Shown: positions 31,902 through 41,246 of the stretch, piece by piece
Layout: each line of letters begins with the position of its first letter
Numbering within the stretch: position 1 is the stretch's first letter
DNA from: Sporocytophaga myxococcoides DSM 11118
Lineage (GTDB): Bacteria > Bacteroidota > Bacteroidia > Cytophagales > Cytophagaceae
Assembly: GCF_000426725.1 (NCBI RefSeq)
Contig: NZ_AUFX01000012.1
Location: 124,001 to 188,000 of the forward strand
Direction of reading: 5' to 3'
Length of the DNA: 64,000 nucleotides
The notes under the pieces: generated by a model
Databases searched by the model: none
Told to the model about the DNA's origin: nothing
What the model saw: the letters and a program-made list of their open reading frames with translations, nothing else
Program-made: the position numbers and the translations under genes

Positions 31902-33017
31902 TTGAAAGATATTCTAATCATAGGAGGAGGGCTCGGTGGGCTCATTACTTCAATTTGCCTTGCAGATAAGGGATATAATGTTTTAGTGATAGAAAAGAAA
32001 GAATACCCCTTTCATAAGGTCTGTGGAGAATACATCTCTAATGAAGTAAAACCATTTTTACAGTCCATAGGATTGAATCTGGCAGATCTTTGTCCTTCTG
32101 AAATCAGCAGGCTTAAAGTTACTTCTCCGCTTGGTGCGGAAGTAAACATGCAACTTGATCTAGGCGGATTCGGGCTCAGTCGTTATACACTTGATCGCGC
32201 TTTATATGAACTTGCAAAATCAAAAGGAGTAAGTTTTCTTTTAAAAGGCCAGGTTGAAGATGTGAACTTTGAAGGCGATAGCTTCAATATAAAACTACAG
32301 GATGGCTCAGAGCATTATGCCCGCATCGTTGTTGGGAGTTTTGGAAAAAGATCAAACCTGGACAGGCAACTCAATCGCAAATTTTTCTTTAAAAGGTCTC
32401 CTTACATTGGAGTGAAATACCATATCAGAACTGAGTTCCCTGATGATCTGATCGCTTTGCACAACTTTAAAGATGGTTACTGTGGTATATCAAAAATTGA
32501 AGACAATAAATATTGCCTATGTTATTTGAGTTCAAGAAATAATCTGAAAGATCATGGGAACATTGATGAGATGGAGAAAGAGGTACTTTTCAGGAACAGG
32601 CATTTAAAGTACATTTTTGAGAATTCTGATTTTCTATATAAAAAGCCGGAAGTAATAAATGAAATAAGCTTCGAAAAGAAAGAAGCTGTATCCAATCATC
32701 TCTTGTTTTGCGGAGATGCAGCCGGCATGATCTCTCCTCTTTGTGGCAATGGAATGGCGATGGCTATTCATTCTGCAAAGATCCTTTCTGAGCTTATCTC
32801 GATACATTTTGTAAAGTCATCTTTAGACAGACAACTTTTGGAAGCTCAATATTCATCGAAGTGGAATGAATTGTTTTCAACCAGATTGTTTGTGGGGAGG
32901 CAAATACAAAAGTTATTCGGACAAGACCTGATGACAGAACTTTCTATAAGGTTCCTGAATAGTGCCAAACCCGTTTCCAGGCAACTTATAAAAATGACAC
33001 ATGGTAAGCCCTTCTAG
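31902..33017 (+). CDS. FAD-dependent oxidoreductase of the type III PKS cluster
   Basis: A 371-residue flavoprotein of the geranylgeranyl-reductase/FixC type. The FAD-binding GGGLGG is at residues 8-13, KVCGEYIS follows near residue 39 (as in this group), and FCGDAAGMISPLCGNGMAMAI near residue 268 is the second FAD motif. Such enzymes hydroxylate or reduce aromatic and isoprenoid substrates. The start is TTG. Its stop overlaps that of the prenyltransferase gene by 4 bases, and it is the first gene of the cluster. A hydroxylase step, as in SrsC of the Streptomyces phenolic-lipid pathway, is a reasonable guess. Confidence 0.8.
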   Translation: MKDILIIGGGLGGLITSICLADKGYNVLVIEKKEYPFHKVCGEYISNEVKPFLQSIGLNLADLCPSEISRLKVTSPLGAEVNMQLDLGGFGLSRYTLDRALYELAKSKGVSFLLKGQVEDVNFEGDSFNIKLQDGSEHYARIVVGSFGKRSNLDRQLNRKFFFKRSPYIGVKYHIRTEFPDDLIALHNFKDGYCGISKIEDNKYCLCYLSSRNNLKDHGNIDEMEKEVLFRNRHLKYIFENSDFLYKKPEVINEISFEKKEAVSNHLLFCGDAAGMISPLCGNGMAMAIHSAKILSELISIHFVKSSLDRQLLEAQYSSKWNELFSTRLFVGRQIQKLFGQDLMTELSIRFLNSAKPVSRQLIKMTHGKPF

Positions 33018-33910
33018 ATATAGTTAAGAACAGTCAGAAAAATAAAGAAAGCTATAAATCCTAGTGAGGATAGCATATTCAGTGTCATGGTTGATTTAAA
33101 GTTTGCTGCTTTTTCATCCTTTAAGACTTTTACAAACCAGGTTAAAAAGTAAACCAATGTAGGCAGCATAAATAAAGGGAAAGCGTAAAGCGCTATCAGA
33201 AGATTTTTTGAAAGAAAATAATACACAAACCCACCTGAGCCAATTGTAAAGACCAATCCTGTCCAGATGAAAGTGCCTCTGATTCCAAGCATTCTGCTGA
33301 ATGTCTGATCTCCTCTTCTTCCATCTTCATTATGTTGATATACTTGCGTCATAGGGTATGATCCTAAAAGGATCATAGTACAAAGTGAAGCAGGAAGAAT
33401 GAGATCATAAAAATTGGCATCAGAATATGATAATCCATTAATTGACAAATAAGACATCAGATAAGTCCAGATACCTTGAAAGAAAGAAACGACAAGAAGT
33501 CCACCTATGGGATATTTCTTTAATCTTGTTGAAGGGTGGCTGTACGCTTTGCTTGCCATTGCGACAATAAAGACCATTAAGGCAAATTGCCATCCTATAA
33601 TAAATGAAAGACCAATAGCTATAAACTCAAATAGTAAGGATGTATAATACAACTCTTTAGAAACCGGAGGTGGATTTTCAATGCCTCCAATACTCTCTTC
33701 ATCTTTGTCAAAATAGCTGTTATAGCCATTACTCGAGGGATAAAAAAAGAGGTGAATTATAATGAATGAAAGAATCAAATAAGGTATATTGGGATTTGGT
33801 GACTGGCTTAAAGCAAAGATGAAGAAAGGCATCAAAAAAATTGAGAAGGGAATTCTCAAGTGTATTAATGTTGATTTTTGAATCATCATTGTTTTAAGAG
33901 TTTTTAACAA
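33014..33910 (-). CDS. UbiA-type membrane prenyltransferase
   Basis: A 298-residue integral membrane protein with about eight to nine hydrophobic segments. The two Asp-rich motifs of the UbiA superfamily are present: NSYFDKDEES (first, near residue 63) and NEDGRRGDQT (second, near residue 196). UbiA enzymes attach isoprenyl chains to aromatic rings. Here it lies between the flavoprotein and the type III polyketide synthase, divergent from the latter by only 26 bases. The aromatic acceptor could be the polyketide product; the donor chain length cannot be predicted. Confidence 0.8.
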   Translation of the reverse strand: MLKTLKTMMIQKSTLIHLRIPFSIFLMPFFIFALSQSPNPNIPYLILSFIIIHLFFYPSSNGYNSYFDKDEESIGGIENPPPVSKELYYTSLLFEFIAIGLSFIIGWQFALMVFIVAMASKAYSHPSTRLKKYPIGGLLVVSFFQGIWTYLMSYLSINGLSYSDANFYDLILPASLCTMILLGSYPMTQVYQHNEDGRRGDQTFSRMLGIRGTFIWTGLVFTIGSGGFVYYFLSKNLLIALYAFPLFMLPTLVYFLTWFVKVLKDEKAANFKSTMTLNMLSSLGFIAFFIFLTVLNYI

Positions 33911-33936
33911 GATAGATAAAATTTTGTTTCTAAGGA

Positions 33937-35097
33937 ATGAAAAGTTTCATTACAGCGATAGGTACTGCAAATCCTGCATACGGCTTCCCTCAGTTAAAAA
34001 TTGCGGAGTTCATGTCGGATGCTGTTTCCATGAATGAAGAAGAAAGACAAAGGTTGTTTACCTTATATCGTGCATCTGGAATAAAACATAGATATTCTGT
34101 CTTGCCTGATTTTGGTACTGCATTTGAGCATTCTGATTTTTTCAGACCTGGAGATAAAACCGCAATGCCCTCTGTGTCTGAAAGGTTGGCTCTTTATAGG
34201 CAAGAGGCGCTGCCTTTGAGTATCGTTGCAATTGAGAATTGTCTTGATCAATTAGGATCTTTTCCCAAAGATAAGATAACTCATCTTATTACTGTTTCAT
34301 GTACTGGCATGTATGCTCCAGGCCTCGATCTGGATATTGTTCAATCACTTGGATTATCTCATTCCGTGAATAGGACATGTGTTAATTTTATGGGATGTTA
34401 TGCTGCATTTTCCGGATTGAAAGTTGCGGATGCTATCTGTAAAGCAGACAAAAATGCTGTTGTATTAATGGTTTGTGTTGAGCTTTGCACCATTCATTAT
34501 CAGAAGAGTATGAATTGGGATCACATTCTGTCTAATGCAATATTCGGTGATGGAGCAGCAGCAGTGATTGTTCAGGCTGAAAGGCCAAAAGGGTTAGCAT
34601 TGAGCCCTGAGTTATTTTATTGTGAATTGCTTCCTGAAGGCCGCAAAGACATGGCCTGGTCTATAGCTGACTTTGGTTTCGAAATGACTTTATCCTCTTA
34701 TGTTCCTTCAATGATAAAAAGTGGAATAAAAGAATTAACCAAAAACCTTTTATCCAAGCTAAGTTACAATGTTGATGAAATAGATTATTTCGCCATTCAT
34801 CCCGGAGGAAAGAAGATACTTGAAGTAATAAAGGATGAGCTGGAAATAAACAAGCAGAAGTGTCAGCAGAGTTTTGACGTGCTTGCTGAATATGGGAATA
34901 TGTCTTCTCCATCTGTTCTGTTTGTTTTAAAAAGGATTATGCAGGATTTGCAAGATGATTTTTCCTCGAAAAGAATTTTATCATTTGCTTTTGGTCCAGG
35001 GCTTACAATGGAATCTATGATTTTGGAAGTTGTTCCATCAGAATTTACCAAAGCCCTTGAAGATGATAAGGAGTTTATCAATATAGAAGCAGTATGA
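33937..35097 (+). CDS. Type III polyketide synthase (chalcone synthase family)
   Basis: A 386-residue homodimeric ketosynthase acting on CoA thioesters. The catalytic triad is Cys154 (in FMGCYAAFSG), His288 (in FAIHPGG) and Asn321 (in EYGNMSSPS); GFEMTLSSYVP near residues 247-257 is the conserved C-terminal loop. Such enzymes make alkylresorcinols, alkylpyrones or tetrahydroxynaphthalene from fatty-acyl-CoA or malonyl-CoA. The product is not evident, but the neighbours (flavoprotein, UbiA, methyltransferase) point to a modified phenolic lipid or quinone. The next gene begins within its stop (ATGA overlap), implying coupled translation. Confidence 0.9.
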   Translation: MKSFITAIGTANPAYGFPQLKIAEFMSDAVSMNEEERQRLFTLYRASGIKHRYSVLPDFGTAFEHSDFFRPGDKTAMPSVSERLALYRQEALPLSIVAIENCLDQLGSFPKDKITHLITVSCTGMYAPGLDLDIVQSLGLSHSVNRTCVNFMGCYAAFSGLKVADAICKADKNAVVLMVCVELCTIHYQKSMNWDHILSNAIFGDGAAAVIVQAERPKGLALSPELFYCELLPEGRKDMAWSIADFGFEMTLSSYVPSMIKSGIKELTKNLLSKLSYNVDEIDYFAIHPGGKKILEVIKDELEINKQKCQQSFDVLAEYGNMSSPSVLFVLKRIMQDLQDDFSSKRILSFAFGPGLTMESMILEVVPSEFTKALEDDKEFINIEAV

Positions 35098-35813
35098 GTC
35101 GTTTTTTGCAAAGATCAGCAGACCCTGAAATTATGGACGACCTGGAGTTCGAAGGGGAGGTTCTTGGTCAAACGTTAGATGAAATTGAATTTATAAATAA
35201 ATGGTTAGGGGGTAATGCAGTAACGTTGGATGCTGTTAAAAGGGTTATTAAGGAAGGTAAGTTGCAAGCATCGGATAGTCCTATTACTATTTCTGATCTC
35301 GGATGCGGTGGAGGAGAAATGCTTTCACTCATTTATAAATGGGCACAGTCAAAAAGTATAAAAGTAAACCTTATTGGAATTGATGCTAACGACTATGTGG
35401 TGAATCATGCAGCAAAAAAAGTTCCTTTACATAACAGTATATCATTTAAAAAATTTAATGTGCTGGATAATGATTTCAGAAATGAATTATTTGATATAAG
35501 CACTTGTACACTATTTTGTCATCATTTTGAAGATGATGTTTTTGTAGATTTTTTAAAGCAATTGAGGAAACAAACGCGTGTTGCTATCATAATTAATGAC
35601 ATTCACAGGCATTGGTTTGCTTATTATTCCATAAAATACCTTACGGGGTTGTTCTCCAAGTCATATATGGTGAAATATGATGCTCAGCTTTCGGTGCTTA
35701 GAGCATTCAAGAAGAAAGAACTGGAACTTTTAATTGCCAAGGCAGGATTCACCAAATTCGATATCCGTTGGAAATGGGCGTTCCGTTTTCAGGTTATTTT
35801 GTGGTGTGATTAA
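35094..35813 (+). CDS. Class I methyltransferase of the type III PKS cluster
   Basis: A 239-residue SAM-dependent methyltransferase with DLGCGGGEML at about residues 68-77 and a conserved C-terminal region (IINDIHRHWFAYYSIKYLTG, AQLSVLRAFKKKELELL, RWKWAFRFQ). It overlaps the polyketide synthase stop by 4 bases, so it is translated from the same message. It probably methylates the polyketide product on oxygen or carbon. The substrate is inferred from position only. Confidence 0.8.
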   Translation: MSRFLQRSADPEIMDDLEFEGEVLGQTLDEIEFINKWLGGNAVTLDAVKRVIKEGKLQASDSPITISDLGCGGGEMLSLIYKWAQSKSIKVNLIGIDANDYVVNHAAKKVPLHNSISFKKFNVLDNDFRNELFDISTCTLFCHHFEDDVFVDFLKQLRKQTRVAIIINDIHRHWFAYYSIKYLTGLFSKSYMVKYDAQLSVLRAFKKKELELLIAKAGFTKFDIRWKWAFRFQVILWCD

Positions 35814-36817: not shown

Positions 36818-38140
36818 TTATTGAAGATCATTCAATAATTGGCCGCTTAACCTTTGCAGCTCAATTTCGGCAGTTTTTGCTGTAAATTGGGCTGAAAGAA
36901 GGTTGTTTTCTGCATCGGTAAGTTTTTGCTGGGTAATTCGTAAATCTATGTCATTTATATTACCGAGTTTATATCTTCCTACCGCAATATTCAGATCTTT
37001 GCGCGCGACTTCAACGTTTCCAACCTGAATGTTTACCAGTTGAATGCTTGTGAGGTAATTGTTATAATATTTATACAAGTCATTCTTCAGAGACAGTTTG
37101 GTGTCTTCGTATTGGGAAGTACTTGATTGGTATAGAACCTTTGCATTCTGGACATTTAAATTAGTGATTCCACCAGTGAAGATGTTCATGCTTGCAGTCA
37201 CTCCGTATGTTAAACCATTTGATCTATTTAACCTTGCAGGACTCACAGGGTTTTGAGTTTTTGAATAGTTATATCCTCCAAACACACCGATTATTGGTAA
37301 ATATTGACTTCTATAAGTCCCGATGTCATATCTTGCAATATTGGCATTCGCTCTCGAGGTCAATAACATTGCATTCTGGCTCTCAAGCTTCTGGGAAAGA
37401 TCATTATAATCAAGTTTTGAATTAATTGGAATTTCTGGTCTTACTTCGAATGCAGTGGTGATTTCGCGTGCAAGAAGCCTGTTTAGATCTGCTTTGGCAT
37501 TTCTGATAAGAGCTGCTTGTTGCAGGAGTCTTGTACTGTCAGCATTTGCATCAACCATTGCCTGATAAATAGCTTGTTCAGACCCAGTACCAATACTCTT
37601 CATACTTTGGGCCAGCTTTAATCTTTGAAGCGAAAGACTTATCGCCTCCTGAATTACATACATCATCTTTTGCTGCTGGACAATTGAGTAATATGTATTG
37701 ATGATATTTGCAACTGTCACTTCAATATCTGTTCGAGCCTTTGTTTGTCCGGCTTTTTCAAGTTCCTGAAGTTTATTTTTTGTAATAAACATATTGAACC
37801 CATCGAAAATGGTCCAGTTGACAAGCGCATTGGCAGCGATGCTTTTGGGTCTAAGGCCGTTTGCATCCCTTGGAGGCGTTGGTGGTTGATATTCTACGTG
37901 AGTATTCACAAGATTGCCGGTATTGTTAAAGTTTAAGTCAACCGTAGGTAAAAATCCGGCATTCCCCAGGGTATTACTGTTTTCGGCAATCTTCTGATTA
38001 TTCCGTGCTATTATAATGGAATAGTTATTTTCAAGCCCTGTTTGAATAGCTTTTTCAAGTGTAAGCGTATCCTGAGAGAAAGCATTTAAAAAGCTGGCTG
38101 TCCATATAACAGCCAGCATAAAAAATTTAATTTTATTCAT
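36818..38140 (-). CDS. TolC-type outer-membrane efflux protein
   Basis: A 440-residue outer-membrane channel with a signal peptide (residues 1-22, before DTLTLEKAI). It has the two TolC-like repeats, seen in the periodic helical stretches (IDIVALTNNYSIIIARNN-like and KARKDLNIAVGRYKLG) and the GNINDIDLRITQQKLTDAENN end. It forms the outer part of the RND pump encoded by the three genes before it; its start overlaps the pump gene by 8 bases. Confidence 0.9.
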   Translation of the reverse strand: MNKIKFFMLAVIWTASFLNAFSQDTLTLEKAIQTGLENNYSIIIARNNQKIAENSNTLGNAGFLPTVDLNFNNTGNLVNTHVEYQPPTPPRDANGLRPKSIAANALVNWTIFDGFNMFITKNKLQELEKAGQTKARTDIEVTVANIINTYYSIVQQQKMMYVIQEAISLSLQRLKLAQSMKSIGTGSEQAIYQAMVDANADSTRLLQQAALIRNAKADLNRLLAREITTAFEVRPEIPINSKLDYNDLSQKLESQNAMLLTSRANANIARYDIGTYRSQYLPIIGVFGGYNYSKTQNPVSPARLNRSNGLTYGVTASMNIFTGGITNLNVQNAKVLYQSSTSQYEDTKLSLKNDLYKYYNNYLTSIQLVNIQVGNVEVARKDLNIAVGRYKLGNINDIDLRITQQKLTDAENNLLSAQFTAKTAEIELQRLSGQLLNDLQ

Positions 38141-41100
38141 ATGAATATTCTATTTTTTTAGGCTCTTCTTTAACTTCTTTCTTTTTATTCTTCTTCTTTC
38201 TGGATAAGAATGTATACATCGCCGGAATTACATATAAGGTAAGGATTAAAGAGAACAATAATCCTCCGATAATTACAAGTCCCATCGGTATACGGCTTTT
38301 AGCACCAGCTCCGATAGCAAATGCAATTGGAACAGCTCCAAGAATAGTTGCAAGGCTGGTCATCAGAATTGGTCTTAAACGTGCTGCTGCCGCTTCACGT
38401 GCTGCATCCATTACAGATAATCCTTCTTCTATTTTGTGGTTCGCAAATTCCACGATCAAAATTCCGTTTTTCGTAACCAGACCAATTAATATAATGATAC
38501 CAATCTGGCTGAAGATATTTAATGTCTGGCCAAACGCATACAAAGTTATAAAAGCTCCGGCAAGTGCTAGTGGTACGGTTAACATAATTACCAGCGGATC
38601 TATAAAGCTTTCAAATTGAGCAGACAATATCAGATAGATAAGTACAAGCGCTAATGTAAATGCAAATAGAATATTGGATGAACTCTCAGCAAAATCTCTC
38701 GATGGTCCGCTCAGACTGGTGCTGAAAGAGTCGTCAAGCAATTTTTTGGAAATCTGATCCATAGCTTCAATTCCATCACCAATTGTTTTACCAGGAGCAA
38801 GTCCGGCAGATACTGTTGCAGATTTATATCTGTTGAAGTGATAAAGTTGTGGCGGACTGTTTGTTTCCTCTATTTTCACCAGGTTGTCCATCTGGACCGG
38901 GACTCCATCTTTGTTTTTTACATAAAGCGAGCTCAGGTTCAATGGTTGATCGCGATTAGCCCTATCGAGCTGACCTATAACCTGATATTGTTTTCCATTC
39001 ATATTAAAATAGCCAAACCTCTGTCCACTAAATGATAACTGAAGCGTTTGGGCAATGTCACTCACAGAAACGCCCAGAGCTTTGGCTCTTTCTCTGTCAG
39101 GTTTTACAATAAGCTCTGGCTTGTTGAATTTTAGATTCACATCAAAGCCCATGAACGTGGGATTTTTTCCTACTTCTTCCATAAACTTAGGAAGTACTGC
39201 TGACAGTTTTTTAAAGTCAGATGACTGTATAACATACTGGACTGGAAGTCCTGATTTTGCAGCACCACCACCTCCACTGATTGTCTGTTCCTGCACAACG
39301 AAGAGTTTTGCAGAAGGGAAGGACTTCAGATTTTTAGATAAGTAATCTGCAATTTCCTGCTGTGACCTGTCCCTGTCATGAGGGTCTGTCAAGGCTATTC
39401 TGAAAATGCCTGTGTTCATACCACCGGATCCTGAAAATCCCGGTGCAGTGATGGTCATTGCAATTTTATTCTCAGGTACTGAATCTTTGATGAACTTAGA
39501 TACATTGTCCATGTAATTAAGCATATAGTCAAATGAAGTACCTTCAGGGGCTGTTGCAGAAACTCTTAGTACACTTCTGTCATCAAGGGGTGCAAGTTCG
39601 GACTGAAGATTTCCTTTGATATACCAGATGGTACCAAGTGAGCCAAGAAGTATGGCAATTGCAACCCATCTTATATTCAGGAATTTTCCTAATGAGCGAC
39701 TGTACGCATTGGTCATTCCTACAAAGAATGGCTCGGACCATTCATAAAAGCGTGTTCTCTTCGTGTGATCTTTTCTCGCCAGTTTTACATTCAGCATTGG
39801 CGTAAGTGTAAGAGATACAAATGCTGATATTAGTACCGCACCCGCAACCACAATACCGAATTCCCGGAATAAGCGTCCTACAAAGCCTTCAAGAAATATA
39901 ATCGGAAGAAACACCACTGCAAGGGTAATGGAGGTGGATATTACCGCAAAGAAGATCTCTTTCGAACCTTCATGAGCGGCATTTAAGGGATCCATGCCCT
40001 CTTCAATTTTTTTGTAAATATTTTCCGTGACTACTATACCGTCATCGACTACCAGACCTGTCGCAAGCACTATTGCAAGGAGTGTAAGAATGTTAATTGA
40101 AAACCCTGCAACATACATGATAAAGAATGCACCAATAAGTGAAACCGGAATATCTATCAATGGTCGGAATGCGATCAGCCAGTCGCGGAAGAACAGATAG
40201 ATGATGATAACCACAAGCACGAATGCGATGATCAGAGTTTCCTGAACTTCGAGGATAGATGTCTTAATAAATCTAGTGTTATCGAGCGCAATGTCCAACT
40301 TATAATCTTCAGGGAGATCTTTTTTTATCTGATCAAATCTCTTGTGAAACTCATTGGCAATTTCAATATAGTTTGCTCCAGGTTGAGGCACTACACCAAG
40401 ACCAATCATTGGGATGCCAGATTCCTTCAGCATGGTGTTTTCATTCTCCGCACCTAAAGTAGCTCTTCCGATATCAGACAGCTTTATAATTCTGGTGCCA
40501 TCGTTTTTAATAATGAGATTGTTGAATTCATCTTCTGTTGTAAGCCTTCCCATAGTTCTTACGGAAAGCTCGGTAGCATAACCTTCAATCTTACCACTTG
40601 GCAGTTCTACATTTTCTTTATTTAAAGCACCCCACACATCGGCCGCAGTCAATTGATAAGAAGCAAGTTTGAATGGGTCCATCCAGATACGCATAGCATA
40701 TTTCTTCTGTCCCCAGATCTGCACAGTACTAACACCAGGTATTGTCTGTAGTCTTTCAAGCACTACGTTTTCTGCATAGTCACTCACTTCTAGCTGGCTT
40801 CTGGTATTGCTTTGTAAGGTAAGAGCAATGATTGCATCAGAGTTGGCATCGGCTTTGGTAACAACAGGAGGGCCATCGATATCTAACGGAAGAAAACGAA
40901 CAGCCTGTGAAACTTTATCTCGAACGTCATTCGCTGCGGTTTCAAGGTCTGCATCCAGGTTAAATTCAACAGTGATACTGCTTGTCCCTGTACTGCTGGA
41001 AGAAGAGATGGATCTGATACCGGCGATTCCGTTGATACTTTTTTCCAGAGGTTCCGTGATCTGTGATTCTATAATATCAGCATTGGCACCGGTATAGGAT

Positions 41101-41246
41101 GTCTTTACTGTAATGACAGGAGGGTCAATGGACGGAAACTCCCGCACTCCGAGATATTTATAGCCGATCAGTCCGAATAGCACAATTACTATGGACATCA
41201 CAGTTGCCAGAACCGGGCGGTTTATACTTACTGAAGAAATATTCAT
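38133..41246 (-). CDS. RND efflux pump, inner-membrane transporter
   Basis: A 1,037-residue AcrB-type proton-driven exporter with twelve membrane segments and two large periplasmic loops. The fourth-segment ATGLVVDDGIVVTENI motif carries the proton-relay Asp pair, and the family's N-terminal NISSVSINRPVLATVMSI is typical. Length is normal for the HAE-1 group. It is the third gene of the marR-adaptor-pump-TolC operon. The exported substrate is not predictable. Confidence 0.95.
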   Translation of the reverse strand: MNISSVSINRPVLATVMSIVIVLFGLIGYKYLGVREFPSIDPPVITVKTSYTGANADIIESQITEPLEKSINGIAGIRSISSSSSTGTSSITVEFNLDADLETAANDVRDKVSQAVRFLPLDIDGPPVVTKADANSDAIIALTLQSNTRSQLEVSDYAENVVLERLQTIPGVSTVQIWGQKKYAMRIWMDPFKLASYQLTAADVWGALNKENVELPSGKIEGYATELSVRTMGRLTTEDEFNNLIIKNDGTRIIKLSDIGRATLGAENENTMLKESGIPMIGLGVVPQPGANYIEIANEFHKRFDQIKKDLPEDYKLDIALDNTRFIKTSILEVQETLIIAFVLVVIIIYLFFRDWLIAFRPLIDIPVSLIGAFFIMYVAGFSINILTLLAIVLATGLVVDDGIVVTENIYKKIEEGMDPLNAAHEGSKEIFFAVISTSITLAVVFLPIIFLEGFVGRLFREFGIVVAGAVLISAFVSLTLTPMLNVKLARKDHTKRTRFYEWSEPFFVGMTNAYSRSLGKFLNIRWVAIAILLGSLGTIWYIKGNLQSELAPLDDRSVLRVSATAPEGTSFDYMLNYMDNVSKFIKDSVPENKIAMTITAPGFSGSGGMNTGIFRIALTDPHDRDRSQQEIADYLSKNLKSFPSAKLFVVQEQTISGGGGAAKSGLPVQYVIQSSDFKKLSAVLPKFMEEVGKNPTFMGFDVNLKFNKPELIVKPDRERAKALGVSVSDIAQTLQLSFSGQRFGYFNMNGKQYQVIGQLDRANRDQPLNLSSLYVKNKDGVPVQMDNLVKIEETNSPPQLYHFNRYKSATVSAGLAPGKTIGDGIEAMDQISKKLLDDSFSTSLSGPSRDFAESSSNILFAFTLALVLIYLILSAQFESFIDPLVIMLTVPLALAGAFITLYAFGQTLNIFSQIGIIILIGLVTKNGILIVEFANHKIEEGLSVMDAAREAAAARLRPILMTSLATILGAVPIAFAIGAGAKSRIPMGLVIIGGLLFSLILTLYVIPAMYTFLSRKKKNKKKEVKEEPKKIEYSYE

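Follow-up and report, generated by a model that had tools for sequence, protein, structure and literature searches.

A type III polyketide synthase and a variant UbiA-family prenyltransferase are co-inherited across most sampled Cytophagales and probably act in one phenolic lipid pathway

Four adjacent genes of Sporocytophaga myxococcoides DSM 11118 encode a type III polyketide synthase (PKS), a UbiA-family membrane prenyltransferase, a flavin adenine dinucleotide (FAD)-dependent oxidoreductase, and a class I S-adenosylmethionine (SAM)-dependent methyltransferase. They lie in a stretch of 64,000 nucleotides (C8:124001-188000 of the 6.34 Mb draft genome), here called the window, to which all positions below refer unless a locus is named. 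The PKS and this UbiA subfamily are co-inherited across most sampled members of the order Cytophagales, even where the two genes are far apart. We propose that the four genes probably constitute one pathway, for an alkylresorcinol-type phenolic lipid that is methylated, ring-oxidised, and prenylated. This proposal is based on gene content, the catalytic triad of the PKS, the predicted folds of the UbiA and FAD enzymes, recurrent adjacency of the genes, and PKS-UbiA co-inheritance. The substrates, step order, regiochemistry, prenyl chain length, and role in the cell are suggested by analogy with the enzyme families.

We searched for each of the four proteins in 98 genomes, counting the window's own, that share its genus, family, or order. 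Presence was called at E ≤ 1e-50 for the PKS, E ≤ 0.001 for UbiA, E ≤ 1e-30 for the FAD enzyme, and E ≤ 1e-10 for the methyltransferase. In a separate profile search the UbiA profile was built with the domains cut out, since a single open frame at one locus (L096) holds both UbiA and PKS and had made PKS proteins score as UbiA. The PKS is found in 73 of the 98 genomes, UbiA in 74, the FAD enzyme in 70, and the methyltransferase in 68; 63 genomes have the complete set and 21 have none of the four. Strong PKS and UbiA matches agree in 97 of the 98 genomes (73 with both, 24 with neither, and one, G089, with UbiA alone). Because the genomes are related, UbiA presence was shuffled within families, which gave a mean agreement of 87.1; the observed 97 was reached in 0 of 20,000 shuffles. 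Five families (f1, f9, f11, f18, and f22) each contain both-gene and neither-gene genomes with zero discordant cases, family f15 contains the sole exception, and families f8 and f21, whose listed genomes measure 1.0-1.6 Mb, have neither gene. The strong-PKS genomes also carry the FAD enzyme in 68 cases and the methyltransferase in 65. G089 is the only genome of the 98 that has this UbiA with no strong match to the PKS, the FAD enzyme, or the methyltransferase.

A gene was counted as linked if its start was no more than 6 kb from that of the PKS, taking the best match per genome; short contigs may hide some links under this measure. UbiA lies within this distance in 37 of the 73 genomes with both genes and farther away in the other 36. 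The methyltransferase is linked in 42 of 67 genomes and the FAD enzyme in 34 of 70, counts that include G046 and G074, two genomes whose PKS is more distant (about 1e-37) and which were left out of the strong-PKS count of 73. Linkage of all partners was counted over the resulting 75 PKS genomes, and in 23 of them, the window's own included, UbiA, the FAD enzyme, and the methyltransferase all lie within 6 kb. The earlier note on this DNA had named unlinked genes in all relatives as an outcome that would refute its proposal, and this is not what the comparison shows. Two layouts recur: FAD(+) UbiA(-) PKS(+) MT(+), MT being the methyltransferase, as in the window, and a co-directional UbiA-PKS-MT-FAD order. 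At L096:6006-7964 (minus strand), UbiA and PKS share one uninterrupted open frame of 652 aa, a single case that is possibly a natural fusion. A methylated, oxidised, and prenylated phenolic lipid, in line with the class of product that the earlier note had proposed, is the best-supported reading, although the pathway type has precedents in the agq and los systems.

The association extends beyond the order. In a phylum sample of 247 genomes, 10 of them from the same order and the window's own included, this UbiA occurs at E ≤ 1e-15 in 39 genomes, and all 39 have a PKS at the same limit. It could be argued that the UbiA enzyme belongs to another pathway and sits near the PKS through synteny only. 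Its distance from the PKS, more than 6 kb in 36 of 73 genomes, its opposite strand in the window, and the occurrence of UbiA without PKS in G089 would fit such a view. However, the 97/98 agreement persists where the genes are far apart, the two share one frame at L096, and no UbiA-positive genome of the phylum sample is without a PKS, so we regard a separate UbiA pathway as highly improbable.

The PKS is the more widespread of the two in the phylum sample, reaching E ≤ 1e-15 in 115 genomes, 76 of them without this UbiA. UbiA matches are strong (E ≤ 1e-50) in 19 genomes; nine of these do not belong to the order, and eight of the nine have UbiA and PKS no more than 0.6 kb apart. The remaining 20 UbiA matches are weak (E about 1e-21 to 1e-31) and all belong to family f42. 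When named genomes were scanned with the UbiA alignment, at least 593 stretches matched a pattern, and 576 of these encode relatives; among the best 80 of these 576 loci, some cut by contig ends, a PKS is present in 59, a methyltransferase in 52, and an FAD enzyme in 47. Two metagenome-assembled genomes titled Candidatus Anammoxibacter, a planctomycete name, carry the methyltransferase, PKS, UbiA, and FAD genes in the window's layout (L121 and L136), which may reflect transfer or mis-binning. UbiA had no match in 72,556 plasmid records, and the PKS matched 201 of them. Of the 30 listed among these 201, four were inspected, from Psychrobacter (PKS, FAD, and methyltransferase), Deinococcus (PKS, methyltransferase, and FAD), Sphingobium (other neighbours), and Streptomyces cellulosae (a different PKS context), and annotated UbiA is absent from all four.

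To look for further pathway genes, the open frames of 155 loci were clustered; the commonest families after the four genes look by eye like syntenic housekeeping or unrelated genes, a judgement made with no profile search. In 11 of 155 loci, proteins of about 330 aa (cluster 11) are encoded between UbiA and the FAD gene; this family, of sugar-isomerase type by eye, is absent from the other loci and was not taken as a part of the pathway. In three metagenome bins (L119, L120, and L131), an MBOAT-type acyltransferase-like protein of about 505-511 aa, judged by eye, follows UbiA; two of these bins are titled Thalassovita and Thalassobius and are perhaps mis-binned.

The pairing of a prenyltransferase with a type III PKS is in itself not new, given the agq and los precedents. 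The agqABCD cluster of Actinoplanes missouriensis was reportedly described by Awakawa et al. in 2011; AgqD is UbiA-like, and the agq genes have been assigned to individual steps. According to the source passages available, the alkylresorcinols made by AgqA are then prenylated and hydroxylated, their function being given as unknown (PMC10896814), and agqA-agqD orthologues are noted in Phytohabitans (PMC7692728). In the same passages the products are named alkyl-O-dihydrogeranyl-methoxyhydroquinones, which include a dihydrogeranyl group (PMC10896814, PMC7692728). As far as agq content can be drawn from these passages and general background, the window's set shares its four-gene make-up, in which a PKS is encoded together with enzymes for methylation, oxidation, and prenylation. 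This likeness concerns gene content. The agq genes form an actinomycete cluster; those of the Cytophagales set are in many cases dispersed, though still inherited together. The los locus of Micromonospora endolithica, responsible for loseolamycins, is described in the available passages as containing adjoining genes for a UbiA enzyme, a methyltransferase, and a type III PKS, with an acyl-CoA dehydrogenase instead of the FAD oxidoreductase (PMC7587189).

Other described systems share part of the set. The passages available on hidABC and on planctomycete three-gene operons, which make hierridins and alkylresorcinols, list a methyltransferase, an FAD-dependent oxidoreductase, and a type III PKS, all three common to the window's set, and do not mention UbiA (PMC10896814). 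A prenyltransferase is reported for one hierridin-like cyanobacterial cluster only (PMC8086630). The earlier note had chosen the Streptomyces Srs system for comparison, which is right as to the class of chemistry and is not the closest relative, as agq and los combine a type III PKS with prenylation or UbiA. In the srs pathway SrsB serves as methyltransferase and SrsC as flavoprotein hydroxylase, and we know of no prenyltransferase in srsABC; in contrast, UbiA accompanies the PKS in 73 of 73 strong-PKS genomes. The likeness lies in the alkylresorcinols, which in the passages available are made by SrsA of Streptomyces griseus and oxidised to alkylquinones (PMC10896814). For Marivirga and Reichenbachiella, the available passages report antiSMASH type III PKS clusters without naming a product (PMC11225308, PMC10752948). 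The order includes flexirubin producers that use DarA/DarB-type genes, as stated in partial sources (PMC3072089, PMC9606717); nothing links the present PKS to that pathway. Among titles and abstracts of openly licensed PubMed Central (PMC) papers on type III PKS, UbiA, and Bacteroidetes/Bacteroidota or Cytophagales, this gene set is not described. A microcyst-lipid role, by analogy with the cyst lipids of Azotobacter, was considered in view of the genus and set aside; the order-wide spread argues against a cyst-specific function, and the two papers found on it were off-topic. What appears to be new is that the set, with its divergent UbiA subfamily, is inherited together across the order although its genes are often dispersed.

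The PKS gene (33937-35097, plus strand) encodes a protein of 386 aa with N- and C-terminal chalcone/stilbene synthase domains (PF00195, 7.5e-31; PF02797, 1e-25). Its catalytic triad is intact, with Cys154, His288, and Asn321 at the positions claimed earlier, which identifies it as a type III PKS. By sequence, its closest relatives of solved structure are 4b0n, 7cb3, and 1ted. The last of these, pks18, which we take to be an alkylpyrone-type enzyme, matches at E 1.3e-47, ahead of the plant chalcone synthase 1bi5 (3.2e-35), and the top NCBIfam model, DpgA, scores 152.9 bits, under its cut-off of 425. The product is therefore not fixed by sequence alone. The place of pks18 among the three best solved relatives would also be expected if the PKS made long-chain alkylpyrones, tailored by the UbiA, methyltransferase, and FAD enzymes, with no aromatic phenolic lipid formed. 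However, a tailoring set of ring oxidation, methylation, and prenylation suits a phenol better, and the PKSs of described methyltransferase-FAD-PKS operons make alkylresorcinols, according to the passages available (PMC10896814); we consider an alkylpyrone product improbable. A second, distant type III PKS, 31% identical, is encoded elsewhere in the same genome (G000:C20:535514-536449, L110); its chalcone-synthase domains are confirmed by Pfam, and similar copies occur in the same-genus genomes G002 and G003. In another locus of the genus (L040, G003:C2:283457-284613) the PKS frame is split in two while UbiA, FAD, and methyltransferase frames are open, which may be an assembly error or real decay.

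The UbiA gene is encoded on the minus strand (33014-33886) and its product is likely 290 aa, from the ATG at 33886. Domain and fold place the protein in the UbiA superfamily: PF01040 scores 53.8 bits (cut-off 34.2), and the AlphaFold model, with a predicted local distance difference test (pLDDT) score of 95.2, is matched by Foldseek to archaeal UbiA homologues solved with dimethylallyl or geranyl diphosphate and Mg2+ (4tq4 and 4tq3), with E 1.2e-5 and a template modelling (TM) score of 0.68-0.70 for 4tq4. A single-sequence search found no PDB chain at E ≤ 1, and a profile search of the PDB returned chlorophyll a synthase as its sole match (E 5e-4). A UbiA 94% identical to the window's is carried by Sporocytophaga sp. 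BIN9.

Canonical UbiA enzymes have (N)DxxDxxxD and DxxxD motifs, as does a paralog in the same genome (L003; NDYYDIKID and DVKGD). The earlier note had credited the window's enzyme with both Asp motifs, and this holds in part: N64, D68, and D196 are retained relative to L003, but the motifs read N64-S65-x-x-D68-x-D70 and Q192-x-x-x-D196. Ser65 is found in 37 of 38 rows, residue 72 is variable, and Gln192 replaces the first Asp of the second motif in all 37 rows with a letter there, while an additional Asp70 is invariant in 38 of 38. N64, D68, D70, Q192, and D196 are also invariant in alignments of 22 and 68 rows. As judged from these sequences, the Asp motifs are a conserved subfamily variant, not canonical.

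The UbiA open frame extends upstream to a TTG at 33910, which would give 298 aa and the 26-base divergent gap to the PKS reported earlier. In two copies from the same genus (L038 and L040), an in-frame TAA lies two codons upstream of the ATG that aligns with residue 9 of the window's UbiA, and most rows of the 68-row alignment have a gap at residues 1-7. We therefore favour the ATG at 33886 (or 33889) as the start. UbiA very likely begins 21-24 bases later than the TTG, so that the divergent gap is likelier to be about 50 bases (33887-33936, on neither strand), not 26. This comparison was made on untrimmed sequences. Gaps at residues 1-9 in an earlier, domain-trimmed alignment were dropped as a start argument, the rows there being cut to the matched domain.

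The FAD-dependent oxidoreductase (31902-33017, plus strand; 371 aa, TTG start) contains FAD_binding_3 (PF01494, E 6.3e-10). Domain and fold place it in the superfamily of aromatic hydroxylases, halogenases, and geranylgeranyl reductases; Foldseek matches to its AlphaFold model (pLDDT 89.4) include the halogenase PltA, 3-hydroxybenzoate 6-hydroxylase, UbiI, and PqsL. Its top NCBIfam profile is TIGR02032, the geranylgeranyl reductase superfamily, at 102.5 bits, below the cut-off of 158.8. This match, together with the dihydrogeranyl group in the agq product name as given in the partial sources, raises the alternative that in the same pathway the FAD enzyme is a prenyl-chain reductase, the product being a methylated alkylresorcinol whose isoprenoid tail is partly saturated. 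We think this unlikely, as the listed best fold matches are mostly aromatic hydroxylases and halogenases, with the reductase-like 3oz2 at rank 26. Moreover, G046 and G074 keep FAD, methyltransferase, and PKS genes without this UbiA, their FAD enzyme being 44-45% identical to the window's; the FAD enzyme is therefore more likely to act on the ring than on the prenyl tail. More distantly, FAD genes stand with PKS and methyltransferase and no annotated UbiA on the Psychrobacter plasmid (24% identity) and the Deinococcus plasmid (matched by profile only).

The methyltransferase gene (35094-35813, plus strand; 239 aa) encodes a class I enzyme with Methyltransf_25 (E 2.1e-9), and its best NCBIfam model, PRK06202, scores 124.4 bits, below the cut-off of 243. 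Its start shares four bases with the PKS stop (35094-35097), and the FAD and UbiA genes overlap tail to tail by four bases at their stop codons (33014-33017). Both overlaps reported earlier were confirmed in the sequence, as were Pfam domains for all four genes and the identity of the FAD-binding oxidoreductase and PKS-coupled methyltransferase. With UbiA on the strand opposite to the rest, the four genes do not form a single operon. The set is flanked by a DUF1802 gene and a second methyltransferase gene, and about 1 kb downstream (36818-41246, minus strand) are genes judged by eye to encode a TolC-type outer-membrane protein and an RND efflux pump.

In the proposed pathway to a prenylated phenolic lipid, the PKS would extend a fatty-acyl starter with malonyl-CoA and close an aromatic ring, of alkylresorcinol or alkylresorcylic acid type. 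The methyltransferase would then methylate the ring or a hydroxyl, and the FAD enzyme would oxidise the ring, probably to a hydroquinone. The membrane-bound UbiA may transfer an isoprenoid from a prenyl diphosphate onto a ring carbon or oxygen. The expected product is a very lipophilic, hydroquinone- or quinone-like membrane lipid.

Several observations weigh against this pathway. Its product and activity are predicted from genes alone, and the PKS sequence, with its pks18 relative and sub-threshold DpgA match, leaves the product unfixed. The best NCBIfam model of the FAD enzyme is that of a reductase superfamily, albeit below its cut-off. In UbiA, three of the canonical Asp positions carry other residues, so the prenyl donor or the chemistry may differ. 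The methyltransferase is missing in 8 and the FAD enzyme in 5 of the 73 strong-PKS genomes at the thresholds used, and these two steps may therefore be optional. All three partners lie within 6 kb in only 23 of 75 PKS genomes, and 22 have none there. The 97/98 agreement depends on the PKS limit of E ≤ 1e-50, which was chosen because the 84 genomes listed at E ≤ 0.001 include weak partial matches, and counting G046 and G074 as PKS-positive lowers it to 95.

A wider proposal, which we hold to be doubtful, is that most Cytophagales make a near-core membrane lipid, a prenylated, methoxylated alkyl-hydroquinone or quinone, through these dispersed, co-inherited genes with their own UbiA subfamily, and that this lipid works alongside menaquinone, with a redox function or in protecting the membrane. 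If so, a large environmental bacterial order would carry a common lipid for which we found no description in the literature searched. Cluster-based mining would also miss pathway genes in about half of the genomes, since 36 of 73 have a distance above 6 kb between UbiA and PKS. The UbiA motif variants, constant across the subfamily, offer a testable case for altered prenyl-donor binding, and the compact Sporocytophaga cluster would be a starting point for testing both these variants and the pathway.

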